From Candidatus Fermentithermobacillaceae bacterium (lineage in GTDB: Bacteria; Bacillota; Sulfobacillia; Fermentithermobacillales; Fermentithermobacillaceae), in the NCBI GenBank assembly GCA_012842425.1, contig DUSU01000078.1, positions 1 to 36,217 of the forward strand: a stretch of DNA of 36,217 nt, given 5' to 3'. Within the stretch, counting starts at the first letter, position 1, and each line of letters starts with the position of its first letter. This document shows positions 13,146 to 20,240 of this stretch, in pieces. The position numbers were made by a program, and so were the translations under genes. The notes under the pieces are model-generated. The model was not told the origin of the DNA, made no database searches, and was given only the letters and a program-made list of their open reading frames with translations.

Positions 13146-13190
13146 CGAGTACAAACCGGCCACGACTAACTTATGTCGACCTAAAGGAAA

Positions 13191-13217
13191 GAGGCGGGAG
13201 AGGATCTCTCCCGCCTC
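13191..13217. terminator. Hairpin between convergent genes, probable bidirectional terminator
   Basis: gaggcgggagag-gat-ctctcccgcctc: perfect 12-bp stem between the stops at 13145 (+) and 13236 (-). Confidence 0.78.
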
Positions 13218-13235
13218 TTCTTCAAGGCTACACCG

Positions 13236-13868
13236 CTACTTGATTAGGTGTAACCAGTCTCCCAGAAGGAACTGCATCCTACCCAGGAAGAGCGACACAC
13301 GAGCCATGACGGTGTTTCCGAAGGCGGCGCCGAACGCGACCATCATCGTGTAGCGACCGACCAGAGACACCTTGCCCTGGACACCCTTCTTCTGGATGGT
13401 GAACAGGAAGTATACCAAGGAGCAGACCGTGCCGATAACGTAGACCCAGTTGGAGACATCGACCCACCAGTCCCCGCTACCCCAGAGGGGCAGGAACGTG
13501 GCGCGCACCTGGTCAACGAAGAACGGCTTGAAGTCCTTGGCAAGGACGTACCCGGAACCGATACCCAGCTGGAAGCAGATGGTGTATCTGCTGAGCCAGG
13601 AGATGGACTTGATATACCTGGTGTAAATGAGCACGCCGATGATGATGGGGATAAGCAGCGACCACTCGCCATCCGTCATGAGACCCTTGGTCACGTTCTG
13701 ACGGATATAGTTGAAGTACGTGAGCGCCACTCCGTATCCAGCGTAGAGCCCTACATAGGTGTGCTCAGCGAACCGGTATAGCGGGTTGTCCTTGAAGACA
13801 GCTGAAACGAGAACGATGGTGAAAAAGGCCTGCAGCCAATTACCCACCGTGATTACGCTTTCGGACAT
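13236..13868 (-). CDS. Polytopic membrane protein of unknown function (cassette gene D)
   Basis: 210 aa with several hydrophobic segments; last gene of a four-gene same-strand cluster with a terminator downstream. Confidence 0.82.
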   Translation of the reverse strand: MSESVITVGNWLQAFFTIVLVSAVFKDNPLYRFAEHTYVGLYAGYGVALTYFNYIRQNVTKGLMTDGEWSLLIPIIIGVLIYTRYIKSISWLSRYTICFQLGIGSGYVLAKDFKPFFVDQVRATFLPLWGSGDWWVDVSNWVYVIGTVCSLVYFLFTIQKKGVQGKVSLVGRYTMMVAFGAAFGNTVMARVSLFLGRMQFLLGDWLHLIK

Positions 13869-13898
13869 TATTGTTTCACCTCCTCAGGATTCAACCCG

Positions 13899-14735
13899 CT
13901 ATGATGCTTGCTTCTTGTTCTTGGTAAGCACATAACCGATGTTACCAAGAATCATGAAGACTATGATGAGAGCGTGAGAGAAGGACTGCGCGTCCATACC
14001 TGCAGTGGCCGAACCCGGCGCTCCGACAAGGACCTCATACTCGGCGGCACCCTTCATGCCTGCCACGAGACCCTTGATCTGGCCCGCCTGAACGAGCGGC
14101 ATGCACTCGGGGATTGATACCGAGATAGCTGCCTCGATAAGCGGGATGTTGTTCGGGCTGGTCACGTGCTTGATATACTCCTTCTCACCGGGGGTACCGG
14201 TGCAGAAGATGGCAACCAGTTTGGCCTGCTTGAGGCTGGTAAACTCCTTCATGAGCGGGAGAGTGTTCAGATCGTTCCCGTAGAAGTCTACGCCCTGAGC
14301 AGTCTCAATGATGCTGTTCTGGTACTGCTGAAGCAGAACTTCGCCGCCGGGCTTGTAGCCGATGTTGACCCAGTCCACACCGTATTCCTTGTCGGGGAAC
14401 TCTGCCTTAACGGTGCTGAATGCCTGCTCAGCCATGTCACCGGCCATCTGCCACATACCGGCGCAGACGAACCTCAGGTCGCGCCCATCCTTCCAGCCTT
14501 GCCTGATCATGGACAGGATAGCCGGCATGAGCTCAGGAATACCACCGGCGGAGAACTCCATGCCCATCCATACGATGCTTCCCGGAGGAAGCTGCTCGAC
14601 GATGTCATATACCTTCTGGGTATCTGCCGAAGGTACGATGGCAAGACCAATCGGCTTTATGAGGGCGAGCGCAATAACGAATATCATCAAGGCGTACAGC
14701 CAACGCCTATCAATGTTCGCAAGCTTTTCCCACAC
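13899..14735 (-). CDS. Membrane protein of unknown function with TM segments at both ends and a central soluble domain (cassette gene C)
   Basis: N-terminal TM WLYALMIFVIALALIKPIGLAIV, central domain of about 200 aa, C-terminal TM ALIIVFMILGNIGYVLTKNKK. GTG start with AAGGAGGTG RBS. Confidence 0.82.
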   Translation of the reverse strand: MWEKLANIDRRWLYALMIFVIALALIKPIGLAIVPSADTQKVYDIVEQLPPGSIVWMGMEFSAGGIPELMPAILSMIRQGWKDGRDLRFVCAGMWQMAGDMAEQAFSTVKAEFPDKEYGVDWVNIGYKPGGEVLLQQYQNSIIETAQGVDFYGNDLNTLPLMKEFTSLKQAKLVAIFCTGTPGEKEYIKHVTSPNNIPLIEAAISVSIPECMPLVQAGQIKGLVAGMKGAAEYEVLVGAPGSATAGMDAQSFSHALIIVFMILGNIGYVLTKNKKQAS

Positions 14736-14762
14736 GCTTTTTCACCTCCTTGTAGTGGAGTT

Positions 14763-15413
14763 CTATTCACCCGTGCCACCCAAGTGGCCGCGCTCGATGC
14801 CAAGAGCGATACGAAGAGCAGTTGCCACGCCACCCAAGCAGGCGCCGATCTGAATACCTCTCATACCCGCGGAGTTGGGTACGTTCAGAATCCAGTCAGC
14901 CATCTGCGAAAGGGCGGGGTGTCCGCCGAGCAGCATCCTGCCAAGCGGCACGCGGCCGAGCATCATAATGAGAGCCGTTACTAGAAGGACAGACGCTTCG
15001 GGGCTACGCACCCTAAACGCTCTGTATGCGGCCGAACCGATATAGAACACGATCGTAGAATAAACGGTAGCGTTCATCGGCGCGATAAGCTGGTTGTACA
15101 TAAAGGTCCAGCCCGGGTGCGATGCGTTCTTGGCCACGAAGATGCCGAAGAACATCATGCCGTATAGACAGATGAGCAGCCAGACGCTGAAGATCCAGCC
15201 TTCCCTCTTGCCAGATATCCTACGACCATGAATCTGGGTCAGGTTGATCGAACCGACGAGCACCGCCCATGCTGCTACGATCAGATACCACCTGTCGAGC
15301 AAGTTCTTGGCAGTGTCGAGGAACGCGACTCCCGTGAAGTAGTTAGCAAGCACGTAAAGGATAGCCAGGATTAGGGTAATGGCTACCGGTAGCTCCTTTT
15401 TCATCCGGTACAC
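14763..15413 (-). CDS. Polytopic membrane protein of unknown function (cassette gene B)
   Basis: 216 aa with about 5-6 hydrophobic segments; an AGGAGGTG RBS precedes the start. Confidence 0.82.
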   Translation of the reverse strand: MYRMKKELPVAITLILAILYVLANYFTGVAFLDTAKNLLDRWYLIVAAWAVLVGSINLTQIHGRRISGKREGWIFSVWLLICLYGMMFFGIFVAKNASHPGWTFMYNQLIAPMNATVYSTIVFYIGSAAYRAFRVRSPEASVLLVTALIMMLGRVPLGRMLLGGHPALSQMADWILNVPNSAGMRGIQIGACLGGVATALRIALGIERGHLGGTGE

Positions 15414-15454
15414 CTCCTTTCGGATTGACCCGGTTCAAAGAATGCGACAAAGGG

Positions 15455-16228
15455 TTACTTGGAAAGCAGGGTTCCAAGGGCATTGGAACCAACGCTGGCC
15501 ATAACGGTGCCTACGACGATAAGGACCACTCCGACCATCTTGCCCCAGTCCTGAGCGACGAGGCTGGCGAGAAGCACGGGCTCCTTGCTGAGATAAGCGC
15601 TGGCAGCGTAGAGCTCCTCACCGATGAGGCAGTAGTCGCAAGCAGCTACGAAGAACGGGATCTGGTGAGTGTTGGCGGTACCGGAGATCTGGATGGCGCC
15701 GGCGATGGAACCGACCTCCGCGAAGATCAAGGACTCAGCCCAGAACGCACCAACCAGGATGTTGGCTGCGGGCTTCTCGCGGAACATGATACCGGTAACG
15801 CCGGTGGCGTACGCGAACTGGTCATCCGAGATCCAGCGGACGTTATCGGGCTTGAAGTTGTCCAGCTTGCCGACCTCGGCAAAGGACTGCTTCACGATTT
15901 CCTCTGAGAGAGGGTAGACGATGACGTTCCTGTTGGTAGCGATGAGATCAGTGTCATAGCGCGCGCACTGCTTGGCCACGTATCCGAGAATGGACATGGC
16001 AGCGAGCGTCTGAGCGTTCTGAAGGTCACCGATACCGGGCGAGAAGTGCACCGGCTTACCCATCTCAGTGCAGCGTCCGATAGCCTCGTCCATGGCCTCA
16101 AGACCTGCCACCTTGTAGATCTCAGGGATCTTCATGCCTCCCCTGGCTCTCCTGATCATGGCGATCACGGCAACCAGGAACAGGATCTCCACCCAGAATG
16201 CGAAACTGTAACCAGTAACTATAGACAT
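15455..16228 (-). CDS. Membrane protein of unknown function, possibly DUF6754-like, with TM segments at both ends and a central domain (cassette gene A)
   Basis: N-terminal TM FWVEILFLVAVIAMIRRARGG, domain KPVHFSPGIGDLQNAQTLAAMSILGYVAKQ..., C-terminal TM MVGVVLIVVGTVMASVG. RBS GGAAGGAGGTGA. The DUF number is from memory and unchecked. Confidence 0.8.
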   Translation of the reverse strand: MSIVTGYSFAFWVEILFLVAVIAMIRRARGGMKIPEIYKVAGLEAMDEAIGRCTEMGKPVHFSPGIGDLQNAQTLAAMSILGYVAKQCARYDTDLIATNRNVIVYPLSEEIVKQSFAEVGKLDNFKPDNVRWISDDQFAYATGVTGIMFREKPAANILVGAFWAESLIFAEVGSIAGAIQISGTANTHQIPFFVAACDYCLIGEELYAASAYLSKEPVLLASLVAQDWGKMVGVVLIVVGTVMASVGSNALGTLLSK

Positions 16229-16413
16229 TTCGTCACCTCCTTCCCATTTGTGACTCTGACATTTCTCCGCAAAAGCGCAGTTTCCTGCCGGAATACAATT
16301 GATTTTTAATCCTCAACTGGCACTTGTCTGTCTAATCAGTCTTCGGTTGGAGAGCTTGGGGAGCCTTTCTAGACAAAATATGCCCAGGTCAGGATATATA
16401 GAATGGAATAAGT

Positions 16414-16442
16414 AAAGGAAGGTGCGCGGAGCACCTTCCTTT
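16414..16442 (-). terminator. Terminator-like hairpin downstream of nrdJ
   Basis: aaaggaaggtgc-gcgga-gcaccttccttt: perfect 12-bp stem, followed on the minus strand by a moderately T-rich sequence. Confidence 0.65.
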
Positions 16443-16472
16443 GTCAGATTTCTTAAGTAAACCAAACGCCTT

Positions 16473-19400
16473 CTAGCACTCGCTGTGGCCGCAAGCAAGA
16501 CACTTGGCGCAGCCCTCAACGTGGACCAGGTTCCACGTTCCGCACTGGGGACACAACCCGAACTTGTTTCCCGGCGCAAGGGGCAAGGCGTCCTGGACAG
16601 GACCTATCTCTTCGTCCTCTTCTTCCTCGGTATCATTCCGGAGATACTCGTCCAGGAACTGTCCGATGGCGTCCGGAACCGACCGGACCCTGTTTGGACC
16701 AAACCCGATGGCCCGGGAACCGCCGATACCTAGGAGCTGGTCGGCAATCTCCTGTGGATCTACGCCGGACCTCAGGGCGGTTGAGATGAGCCTGGCTATG
16801 GCCTCGGTGAAGGCCGATACGTCGCTGCCCGCCTTGCCGATCTGGGCAAACAGCTCGACCGGGTGACCGTTAAGGGTGTTCAGAGTCAGGAACAACTTGC
16901 CTACCGGCGTCTCCTTGGCCGCGGTAAAGCCGTCCAGGCGAACGGGCCGTTCTATGGGCTTTATGTGGCCCCAGACCCCGTTTATCTTCGCCTTGCCGTG
17001 TAGTTCACGGGGATCGAGCTGAGCCTCACCGGTCGCCGGGGCCTCACTTGTACCTTGTCCCTGCGCCTTCTTGTCGGCCCCAACGGTCAGCACCTGCTCG
17101 CTCCGGCTACCGTCGCGGTACACGGTTACTCCCTTGCAGCCCAACTTGTTGGCGAGGACGAACACTTCCTTGACCTCTTCCCTGGTCGCCTCATTGGGGA
17201 AGTTGACGGTCTTGGATACCGCGTTGTGCGTGTGCTTCTGGAAGGCCGCCTGCATCCTTATATGCCACTCAGGCGTTATGTCGTGGGCGGTCACGAACAC
17301 CTTCCTGACTTCCTCGGGGACACCTTGGATGTCGTGCAAGGACCCGTGCTCCGCGATCTTCTCCATGAGCTCGTCGCTGTAGAACCCAAGGGTGCGCGCA
17401 ACCCGCTCAAACCTTGGGTTCACCTCAACGAGGGCCTTCTTGTCGAGCACGTGCCTTGTGAAGGCAATGCTGAACAAGGGCTCGATGCCTGATGAGGCGC
17501 TCCCTATGATACTGATCGTCCCGGTGGGCGCGATTGTCGTAGTGGTGGCGTTTCTCACGGGTTTTTTCCGGGCGGCATAGACGCTCTTTCCGTAGTTGGC
17601 AAAGGTGCCGCGGGACTCGGCCAGCTCCATGGAAGCCTTTACAGACTCCTCCTCGATGAAGCCCATGACGCTCTCGGCGAGCTCCAGGGCTTCTTCCGAG
17701 CAGTAAGGTATGCCCAGGTCGAGGAGCATGTCGGCCCAGCCCATGACGCCCAAACCGATCTTCCGGTTGCCGTGAGCCATCTCATCTATCTCAGGCAGCG
17801 GGTACTTGTTGGCGTCGATCAGGTTATCCAGGAAATGCACTCCCGCCCTGACCGTCTTCCTGAGTCCGTCCCAATCAACTCGGTCCTTTACCCCCTTGGG
17901 GGCCTCCTTGCTCCCCCACACAGGTTTCGTGAAGGCGCCTAGGTTCACTGATCCCAGACAGCACGCCTCGTAGGGCAAGAGCGGCTGCTCTCCGCAGTTG
18001 GATACGACAATCCCGTTGGCTATGAAGGAATGGCTAATGGGGACCGTAAGATCGAAGACTTCTTTTTCGCCGGCCGGTTCGAGGGACTCTACGATGTCAA
18101 CGTACTGCTGACGGTAGAACCCTCTTGACCGCCTTCTCAGGTCTCCGATCTTCTCGGCGAAACGGTCATCTGCGAACCCCACTTCATCGATGAAGCGTCC
18201 CAGGTTATCTCCACTCACCTGGAGTTCATACAGCACGGCGTCACTCACATATACCCTCGTGGGGCCGTTAACAGACTCATAGGCGAAAGACCCCCCGACA
18301 GGCCTGGACCTTTCATAGATGGTTGACATGATCCCGAGGTTTAAAAGGAGAACCTGCACGTCCTCTAGGAGGGCCCTTGACTTCGAGGTAAGCCTGACGT
18401 AGGCCGTGCCGTTGTGCGCGTTCGCCAAAGTGCCGTCGGCCGTGAATATCCCCTGCAGGAAACCAATTACTGCTTCACGAGTGGCCCTGAAGAGCGTTTC
18501 GGGGACTCTCTTGACGGCGGACCTACCGGGTAGGACCCCAAGGCTCCGGAAGAACTCGACCACCGAACGAGAGTGATAGCTGAGGTGGTAAACACCATTC
18601 GCGCGCCTAACGGGCTTCACAGGTCCGTACCACCGGTCGAGAGCCGACTTCACCGTATCCATGACGCGGAGGTCTTGTTCGGCGAAGGTGAACCCAACGC
18701 GAGAGTTCTTCCCAGAATCTATGAGCCAACCGTCGCCGATAAGCCAGCCTAAGACGAGGCCCAGTTCTCCGGACCAACTTGTCGGGAAATCGGTTTGATA
18801 TGTACGGCCATTGGCTCCGGTCCTTAGGTTCCTGACCGGGACGGGCAGCGATGGGTCAAGGCTGAACTGTCCGGCGCCGGACTGAATTAGGACCGAGTCC
18901 ACGCCAGGCCGCAGGCTGCCGGCAGGCACCCACCCTCGAGGAGTCATGATCTTGTGGTCGGCTGTAACCTCCACAGAGTACCCACGCTTGGTCCTGAGTC
19001 GGATTACATCCTTAACGGCAGTCCGGAAAGCCCTCGACAAGGGCACGACATCCACTCCGGTCACAGTGTCTACGGCTGTTCCCGAAGTCCCTTCTCGGAC
19101 CATCCCGCCGAATGAGACACGCCGGTCAACGGCTACTCCGACTCCTCCCGTAGACCACTTCTCGGCTATTTCCCTAATAGGGATGAGACCCATTTCCGTG
19201 GACACAAGAGCGTCGCCGGCAACACACGGGTTAGTACTCTCGATCTCCCCAATCTCAGGAGTCGGGTTATCCTTGTTGAGCCGGTCGAGGAAGATGATGC
19301 CCGGCTCGCCGTTCCTCCAGGCCTGGTCTACGATTTTCTCAAAGACTTCCCGGGCGTTCAGTTTACCGGTAACCTTTCCGTTCCGGGGGTTTACCAGTTC

Positions 19401-20240
19401 GTACTCTTCGCCCTTCTCCACTGCCTCCATGAACTTCTCGGTGATTCCTACGGATATGTTGAAGTTGGTCAGTTCGCTGTTATCGGTCTTGCAGGTAATA
19501 AACTCGAGTATATCGGGGTGATCGACGCGAAGGATCCCCATGTTCGCCCCGCGCCTTACTCCACCTTGCTTGACCGCCTCCGTCGCTGCGTTAAACACCT
19601 TCATGAAAGAGACGGGGCCGGATGCCACTCCACCCGTGGACTTCACGACATCGTTCTTAGGCCGGAGCCTGCTGAAACTAAAACCGGTCCCGCCGCCCGA
19701 TTGATGGATCAGGGCCGCGTGCTTCAGCGAATCGAATATGCTGACCATCGAATCTTCTATGGGCAATACGAAACAAGCCGATAATTGCTGGAGTTCACGT
19801 CCGGCGTTTATGAGGGCGGGCGAGTTGGGAAGAAACTTGGCATCGGTCATCACTTCGTAGAACCTGACCGCCAGCTCGCGGATCTCATGCTTCTTCGTCT
19901 CGACCAGTTCTCGAAAACCATCCCAAGTGAGTTTCACAAGACCCTTTGACTCAAGACGAGTAAAGGCCATCTTCAGGGTCGCCCAGTCCCATTCGGAAAC
20001 CGCAAACTCGAGGTCGCCTGCGACATCCGGTTTCTCAGGAGCGCCCGCTACGCTCGCAGTCTTTTTCTGTCGCCTCTCTGGCCCGGCATAAACCTCGGGA
20101 TAATACACGAAATCCATGAGGGCGATGTTTTTCGCCACCCGCCAGAACATCTCCGCGGGAGTCTCAAGAGGTTTTCCCGCCTCGTCCTTCTTCAGGTACC
20201 TCTTCTCCAAAACCTGAATCGCGTTTTCAGAAAGGTTCAA
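16473..20240 (-). CDS. nrdJ: Adenosylcobalamin-dependent (class II) ribonucleotide reductase, interrupted by an in-frame intein
   Basis: RNR motifs: FLPNSPALINAGRELQQLSACFVLP, SGGGTGFSFSRLRP, GGVRRGANMG, ESTNP/CGEQPLLPYEACCLGSVNLG, ATTTIAPTGTIS; C-terminal Cys-rich CPQCGTWNLVHVEGCAKCLACGHSEC. TTG start. Confidence 0.95.
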   Translation of the reverse strand: MNLSENAIQVLEKRYLKKDEAGKPLETPAEMFWRVAKNIALMDFVYYPEVYAGPERRQKKTASVAGAPEKPDVAGDLEFAVSEWDWATLKMAFTRLESKGLVKLTWDGFRELVETKKHEIRELAVRFYEVMTDAKFLPNSPALINAGRELQQLSACFVLPIEDSMVSIFDSLKHAALIHQSGGGTGFSFSRLRPKNDVVKSTGGVASGPVSFMKVFNAATEAVKQGGVRRGANMGILRVDHPDILEFITCKTDNSELTNFNISVGITEKFMEAVEKGEEYELVNPRNGKVTGKLNAREVFEKIVDQAWRNGEPGIIFLDRLNKDNPTPEIGEIESTNPCVAGDALVSTEMGLIPIREIAEKWSTGGVGVAVDRRVSFGGMVREGTSGTAVDTVTGVDVVPLSRAFRTAVKDVIRLRTKRGYSVEVTADHKIMTPRGWVPAGSLRPGVDSVLIQSGAGQFSLDPSLPVPVRNLRTGANGRTYQTDFPTSWSGELGLVLGWLIGDGWLIDSGKNSRVGFTFAEQDLRVMDTVKSALDRWYGPVKPVRRANGVYHLSYHSRSVVEFFRSLGVLPGRSAVKRVPETLFRATREAVIGFLQGIFTADGTLANAHNGTAYVRLTSKSRALLEDVQVLLLNLGIMSTIYERSRPVGGSFAYESVNGPTRVYVSDAVLYELQVSGDNLGRFIDEVGFADDRFAEKIGDLRRRSRGFYRQQYVDIVESLEPAGEKEVFDLTVPISHSFIANGIVVSNCGEQPLLPYEACCLGSVNLGAFTKPVWGSKEAPKGVKDRVDWDGLRKTVRAGVHFLDNLIDANKYPLPEIDEMAHGNRKIGLGVMGWADMLLDLGIPYCSEEALELAESVMGFIEEESVKASMELAESRGTFANYGKSVYAARKKPVRNATTTTIAPTGTISIIGSASSGIEPLFSIAFTRHVLDKKALVEVNPRFERVARTLGFYSDELMEKIAEHGSLHDIQGVPEEVRKVFVTAHDITPEWHIRMQAAFQKHTHNAVSKTVNFPNEATREEVKEVFVLANKLGCKGVTVYRDGSRSEQVLTVGADKKAQGQGTSEAPATGEAQLDPRELHGKAKINGVWGHIKPIERPVRLDGFTAAKETPVGKLFLTLNTLNGHPVELFAQIGKAGSDVSAFTEAIARLISTALRSGVDPQEIADQLLGIGGSRAIGFGPNRVRSVPDAIGQFLDEYLRNDTEEEEDEEIGPVQDALPLAPGNKFGLCPQCGTWNLVHVEGCAKCLACGHSEC
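17997..19226 (-). other. Intein (410 aa) with a LAGLIDADG-type homing endonuclease, inserted at the RNR NP|CGE site
   Basis: Begins CVAGDALVSTEMGLIPI; block B VEVTADHKIMTPRGW; endonuclease motifs LGWLIGDGWL and FLQGIFTADG; ends ISHSFIANGIVVSN followed by +1 Cys. Removal restores ESTNPCGEQPLLP. Confidence 0.95.

Follow-up and report, generated by a model that had tools for sequence, protein, structure and literature searches.

A conserved four-gene membrane cassette containing DUF6754 and its S-M-K partner module: a candidate multi-copy solute transporter

Four adjacent genes encoding membrane proteins, here termed A, B, C and D, were analyzed in a window of 36,217 nucleotides (the whole stretch of DNA under study) and, with near certainty, make up a conserved unit. 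Genome comparisons indicated that this unit very likely depends on, or serves, a module of three other genes, S, M and K, a partnership that is the strongest functional clue in the analysis. The reading preferred here is that A-B-C-D is a solute transporter present in multiple copies, to which a probability of about 0.5 is given.

Composition and conservation of the A-B-C-D cassette

The four genes lie on the minus strand at the positions given by the first-pass annotation of this DNA, each preceded by an AGGAGG-type ribosome-binding site as read from the sequence (Table 1). Of the lengths proposed there (257, 216, 278 and 210 aa), those of A, C and D were retained; for gene B, ATG 15404 (213 aa) is a more likely start than GTG 15413 (216 aa), since its homologues begin with M-[KR]-x-E-x-P. 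Both flanking hairpins are real and fold strongly. Their description as two terminators was sustained in part: the one downstream of D is a probable transcription terminator, although the terminator consensus scan does not list it, and the same scan gives the one near nrdJ as a terminator on the plus strand only.

Table 1. Features of the cassette and its borders in the window
Feature	Position	Strand	Length	Description
nrdJ	16473-20240	-	1255 aa	Gene for a class II ribonucleotide reductase; an intein carrying two LAGLIDADG stretches is inserted in frame
Hairpin between nrdJ and A	16412-16444	-		-19.6 kcal/mol, z = -6.1 (folding); separates the cassette from nrdJ
Gene A	15455-16228	-	257 aa	DUF6754 (PF20539), most conserved of A-D; TM helices predicted at 8-29 and, C-terminally, at 217-245, enclosing a cytoplasmic Rossmann-like alpha/beta domain
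Gene B	14763-15404	-	213 aa	Polytopic, with about six TM helices; N-in/C-in orientation predicted; no Pfam match above cut-off
Gene C	13899-14735	-	278 aa	GTG start; extracytoplasmic Rossmann-like domain (about residues 33-240) predicted between two TM helices, the second C-terminal; outer domain more variable than A
Gene D	13236-13868	-	210 aa	Polytopic, with about six TM helices; N-out/C-out orientation predicted from a weaker signal
Hairpin downstream of D	13180-13232	-		-31.8 kcal/mol, z = -5.4 (folding); probable terminator

The cassette had been described as devoid of recognizable domains. This holds for B, C and D of the window, which matched no Pfam or NCBIfam family above its cut-off, but not for A, a clear member of DUF6754 (E = 4e-96, 321.4 bits against a Pfam cut-off of 27), a family of unknown function. 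None of 68 C homologues and none of 37 D homologues carried a Pfam family; B homologues showed only scattered weak Pfam matches to unrelated membrane families, and B itself a sub-threshold one to TMD0_ABC (21.2 bits against 27). Profiles of the four proteins found no sequence relative in the PDB. In a search of the open-licence literature, neither DUF6754 nor PF20539 was named in any paper, a description elsewhere being possible, and no account of an A-B-C-D system was found. DUF6754 as defined comprises a single protein, and includes neither the obligate partners B, C and D nor the S-M-K module.

To assess conservation, loci were taken from many genomes, their genes were called with a codon-usage script and A to D were labelled with profiles. 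The order A-B-C-D on one strand was observed in 112 of the 115 loci with room for four genes, in bacteria as well as archaea; the exceptions were one Bathyarchaeota locus, counted twice, in which D could not be detected, and an archaeal locus where B is split (L180:6645-7900), its two ORFs reflecting a frameshift or a sequencing error. Genome-wide co-occurrence, profiled with A, C and D, was almost perfect: of 41 genomes, the 25 that had A were also the 25 that had C, the copy numbers of the two correlating at r = 0.997, and A was found in all 24 genomes, among 300 Bacillota, that carried D. Distance matrices among 111 cassettes were correlated at 0.75-0.81 for all six protein pairs. Thus, A, B, C and D are inherited and duplicated together, presumably as subunits of one physical hetero-oligomeric complex. 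The notion that each gene encodes an ordinary stand-alone membrane protein, placed in this order by local chance, is refuted by the conserved order in 112 of 115 loci, archaea included, and by the obligate co-occurrence across genomes. Two complete cassettes in direct tandem were observed at three places (L030/L182, L114 and L138).

Copy number varied widely. The genome of the window (1.68 Mb in 113 contigs) contains at least 7 copies of DUF6754; relatives contain 1-29, genomes of the same family 5-15, one genome of the same class 27 (29 by the C profile), and several other genomes a single one. In another cassette of the window's own genome, gene A (G000:C44:2796-3524, locus L075) carries an internal TAG and is either a pseudogene or affected by an assembly error. 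DUF6754 was present in 25 of 300 genomes spread over Bacillota and in archaea labelled Culexarchaeum, Culexmicrobium, Methanomethylicota and Bathyarchaeota, and was absent from 14 well-known control genomes. A plasmid or phage origin was considered and discarded, A having no match in plasmids and C none in phages. A short contig from a Methanosarcinales bin (L059, G338) has M-K upstream of A-B-C instead of downstream; being the only case among the 197 genomes of its phylum, this record may be mis-binned and was not relied on.

The S-M-K module and genomic surroundings

In single-copy genomes, D is often followed by a gene of 594-644 aa (M) and one of 371-450 aa (K). M belongs to MutL (PF13941; E = 1e-128, 429.9 bits against a cut-off of 27) and shows motifs of the ASKHA type: DxGSTTTK in all 4 copies inspected, with GVDIGGATT and GSGG also present in the three from bacteria. 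The earlier statement that no ATPase is present therefore holds for the cassette but not for the shared module. The one K member scanned had no Pfam match; alignments of K, read by eye, displayed repeated V-x-x-G-x-x-V-type, barrel-sandwich-like motifs, and its C-terminus a weak KOW-like similarity. S is a small protein of 83-140 aa whose gene adjoined M-K or A in 27 of 27 cases among the fetched loci; in single-copy genomes it is located between M and K or next to them. Where a genome has multiple copies, most cassettes are located apart from S-M-K; the module then has a cluster of its own, often arranged as M-K-S-M-K near genes resembling tsaE, tsaB and tsaD (named by eye). Such tandems, M1-K1-S-M2-K2 with two MutL-type ATPases and two K, were noted at L191, L192, L199, L200 and L221, and a further diverged M-K pair adjoins ABC/FtsX-like genes at L195, one example of several.

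The association between cassette and module was quantified across genomes. Among 300 Bacillota, A was present in 25, K (strong matches) in 24 and both in 23 (Fisher p = 5e-31, relatedness being ignored); the genomes bearing A or K fall in about ten families. The three exceptions were a genome 78% complete (G058), one with a divergent A (G134) and one in which K accompanies a shortened M (G048). In this last genome (L197) an M-K pair with M reduced to 469 aa occurs without A-B-C-D; M-K without A-B-C-D was also seen in G023 (L198), where the cluster reaches the contig end and the cassette may be on the missing stretch. Of 200 genomes from one archaeal phylum, exactly the same four contained A and K, with one additional K match to a 66-residue fragment (E = 6e-4).

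M could provide ATP coupling for A-B-C-D. The role described for MutL, however, is that of a chaperone reactivating glutamate mutase (PMC4682846), and for this reason M may not energize transport. M shares with MutL/GlmL of the glutamate mutase operon its membership in PF13941 and its ASKHA motifs; its pairing with K and S and its link to a membrane cassette set M apart, and no glutamate mutase (GlmS and GlmE) was noticed beside it in the M-K loci read.

Cassette copies occupy many unrelated places, with housekeeping genes among their neighbours. Other neighbours include M20, M42 and S9 peptidases, D-aminoacylases, gamma-glutamyltranspeptidase, creatininase and S-Me-THD proteins, some of them named by eye. 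In a seeded search, peptide or amide hydrolases made up 16.3, 7.0, 5.6, 5.0 and 5.5% of genes from distance 1 onward. They accounted for 26 of 160 immediate neighbours against 16 of 308 genes at least 4 places away (p = 1.3e-4), a partly circular comparison whose p-value is optimistic because the classes were picked after some neighbourhoods had been seen. An unbiased Pfam scan of the 113 nearest neighbours and 113 genes at least 4 places away found M20 peptidases (6 versus at most 2) and MutL (9 versus 3) closer to cassettes, and no enrichment of amidohydrolases near them. Most cassettes, that of the window included, share their operon with no catabolic gene. The neighbourhood of the window copy (nrdJ, PHP, DHDPS) is kept within the genus only, that is, in the closest relatives with this cassette, and the cassette of F. 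carboniphilus whose A is most similar (71%) is flanked by other genes; the genes around the window copy consequently say little about function.

Predicted folds and topology

The folds and topology of A-D are supported by prediction. AlphaFold2 single-chain models were confident (mean pLDDT of 94.5 for A and 96.1 for C), and both proteins were modelled with the same order of helices and strands: a TM helix, a Rossmann-like alpha/beta domain of six strands and a second TM helix. The alternation first seen in the sequence, of proteins with a soluble domain (A, C) and polytopic ones (B, D), is thus upheld, with a TM helix at each end of the soluble domain. On family average, the flanks of the A domain contain 6.1 K+R per 36 residues versus 0.3 and 1.5 at the ends of A, and this basic flanking places the domain in the cytoplasm. 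The flanks of the C domain are acidic (5.7 D+E versus 2.7 K+R) and the termini of C basic, pointing to a domain outside the cell. By the same charge rule B is predicted to be N-in/C-in and D, less clearly, N-out/C-out. With A and C on opposite faces and B and D opposed, a roughly antiparallel arrangement (A versus C, B versus D) is suggested, with about 12-16 predicted helices per A-B-C-D unit.

Duplicated halves, with A homologous to C and B to D, were tried as an explanation and rejected, profile comparisons giving probabilities of 1-6%; since sequence lends no support to common ancestry, the pairing of A with C and of B with D is a structural hint only. Foldseek searches of A and C against the PDB returned unrelated proteins with low TM-scores (best E of 9.6e-4 for C and 0.013 for A); the matches of C to a GPCR and to trehalose synthase, with query TM-scores of about 0.36 or less, were set aside as showing no interpretable relation. 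Across 111 cassettes, C was the most divergent protein (median identity 34%) and A the least (45%). Invariant acidic residues were D198 and E205 in A and E234 in C.

Function and relation to known systems

Solute transport is the function that fits best, because of the number of paralogues, the variable outer and conserved inner domains, a membrane content of roughly 12-16 helices for each unit, the nearby hydrolase genes and peptide fermentation, documented in the complete genome of a family-mate as fermentation of peptides and amino acids (PMC10215811). In such a transporter, C would present its variable alpha/beta domain outside and recognize the solute, B and D would supply about twelve membrane helices to form its path, and A, with its strongly conserved alpha/beta domain on the cytoplasmic side, would couple that path to the M/K ATPase. 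Cytosolic S-M-K would serve as a common module, one or a few sets attending from one to about 29 paralogous A-B-C-D units, with M as the candidate energy source or regulator. The cargo would be small organic solutes, probably peptides or amino-acid derivatives taken up by fermenters. We infer transport, its direction and its substrate from this combination of traits. Counting against it, B and D have no homology to any transporter family. Replacement of ABC importers by the cassette was also considered and abandoned, PF00528 density showing no difference and classical ABC importers not significantly fewer in cassette-rich genomes (p = 0.23). The bolder proposal of a new class of primary transporter common to bacteria and archaea, an antiparallel, pseudo-symmetric heterotetramer with a shared ASKHA ATPase (M+K+S) instead of a P-loop one and up to 29 substrate variants per genome, is doubtful.

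A variable C combined with a conserved A would fit membrane receptors too, and this counts against transport. C would sense outside compounds and A would signal to a common effector, M-K, adjusting catabolism, with paralogues differing in ligand. The shared soluble partner module, the weak similarity of the K C-terminus to KOW (RNA- or protein-binding) and the location of single units near IclR and RpiR regulators and catabolic genes are compatible with such a role, which is nonetheless rather unlikely: two six-helix subunits represent more membrane than a receptor needs, and kinase, cyclase, response-regulator and HAMP domains are absent from A-D and from the one K scanned.

Somewhat less likely again is a membrane-bound enzyme complex acting, for example, on an amide or peptide-like compound, with M as its reactivating chaperone, as described for MutL and glutamate mutase (PMC4682846). 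The invariant acidic residues of A and C and the hydrolase neighbours would agree with catalysis, but A and C have no confident enzyme family or PDB fold, no cofactor motif was seen, and an enzyme of this kind would not usually have 7-29 paralogues per genome. A cell-envelope or structural complex built around an actin-like ATPase, in outline like PilM-N-O and with copies for different surface structures, is improbable: M has ASKHA motifs and the domains of A and C are predicted on opposite membrane faces, but no association with pilin, secretin or cell-wall genes was found, and the copies lie at unrelated loci. A role in anti-phage defence was dismissed, PADLOC having returned no match for A-D.

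The preferred reading, solute transport, was compared with established transporters. Group II ECF transporters have one shared energizing module and many substrate units, and A-B-C-D resembles them in organization only, many membrane units apparently sharing one cytosolic ATPase module. A-D, by contrast, have no P-loop ATPase pair, EcfT or S-component homology; the ATPase is of the ASKHA/MutL type, and four membrane genes carry soluble domains on both faces. More generally, features of ABC importers, ECF included (a P-loop ABC ATPase, a PF00528- or EcfT-type permease), were absent from A-D in Pfam and NCBIfam searches. TRAP and TTT transporters consist of an extracytoplasmic domain plus two unequal membrane subunits, and the likeness extends to these traits; they differ in that both ends of C are anchored in the membrane and that A contributes a cytoplasmic domain, and no homology of A-D to DctP/DctQ/DctM or TctC/TctB/TctA was detected in Pfam and NCBIfam. 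No characterized complex was matched in Pfam, NCBIfam, PDB profiles, Foldseek or PADLOC. With no named family for five of the seven proteins and no match to any known system, A-B-C-D with S-M-K is regarded as a new system, in line with the initial suggestion that the cassette was a candidate for an undescribed one. Neither outcome named in advance as refuting that suggestion, homologues scattered instead of clustered or a match to a characterized complex, was observed.

A, B, C, D, S, M and K therefore constitute a seven-gene partnership of no described function, with up to 29 four-gene loci per genome, in uncultured peptide-fermenting bacteria and, recurrently, in deep archaeal lineages. The phyletic link supplies a directly testable set of partners. 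Should A-B-C-D not be a transporter, it would still be a large membrane system without a name; if it is one, it would explain the uptake of part of these organisms' food, by a class of transporter whose only visible ATPase has the actin/Hsp70/sugar-kinase fold.
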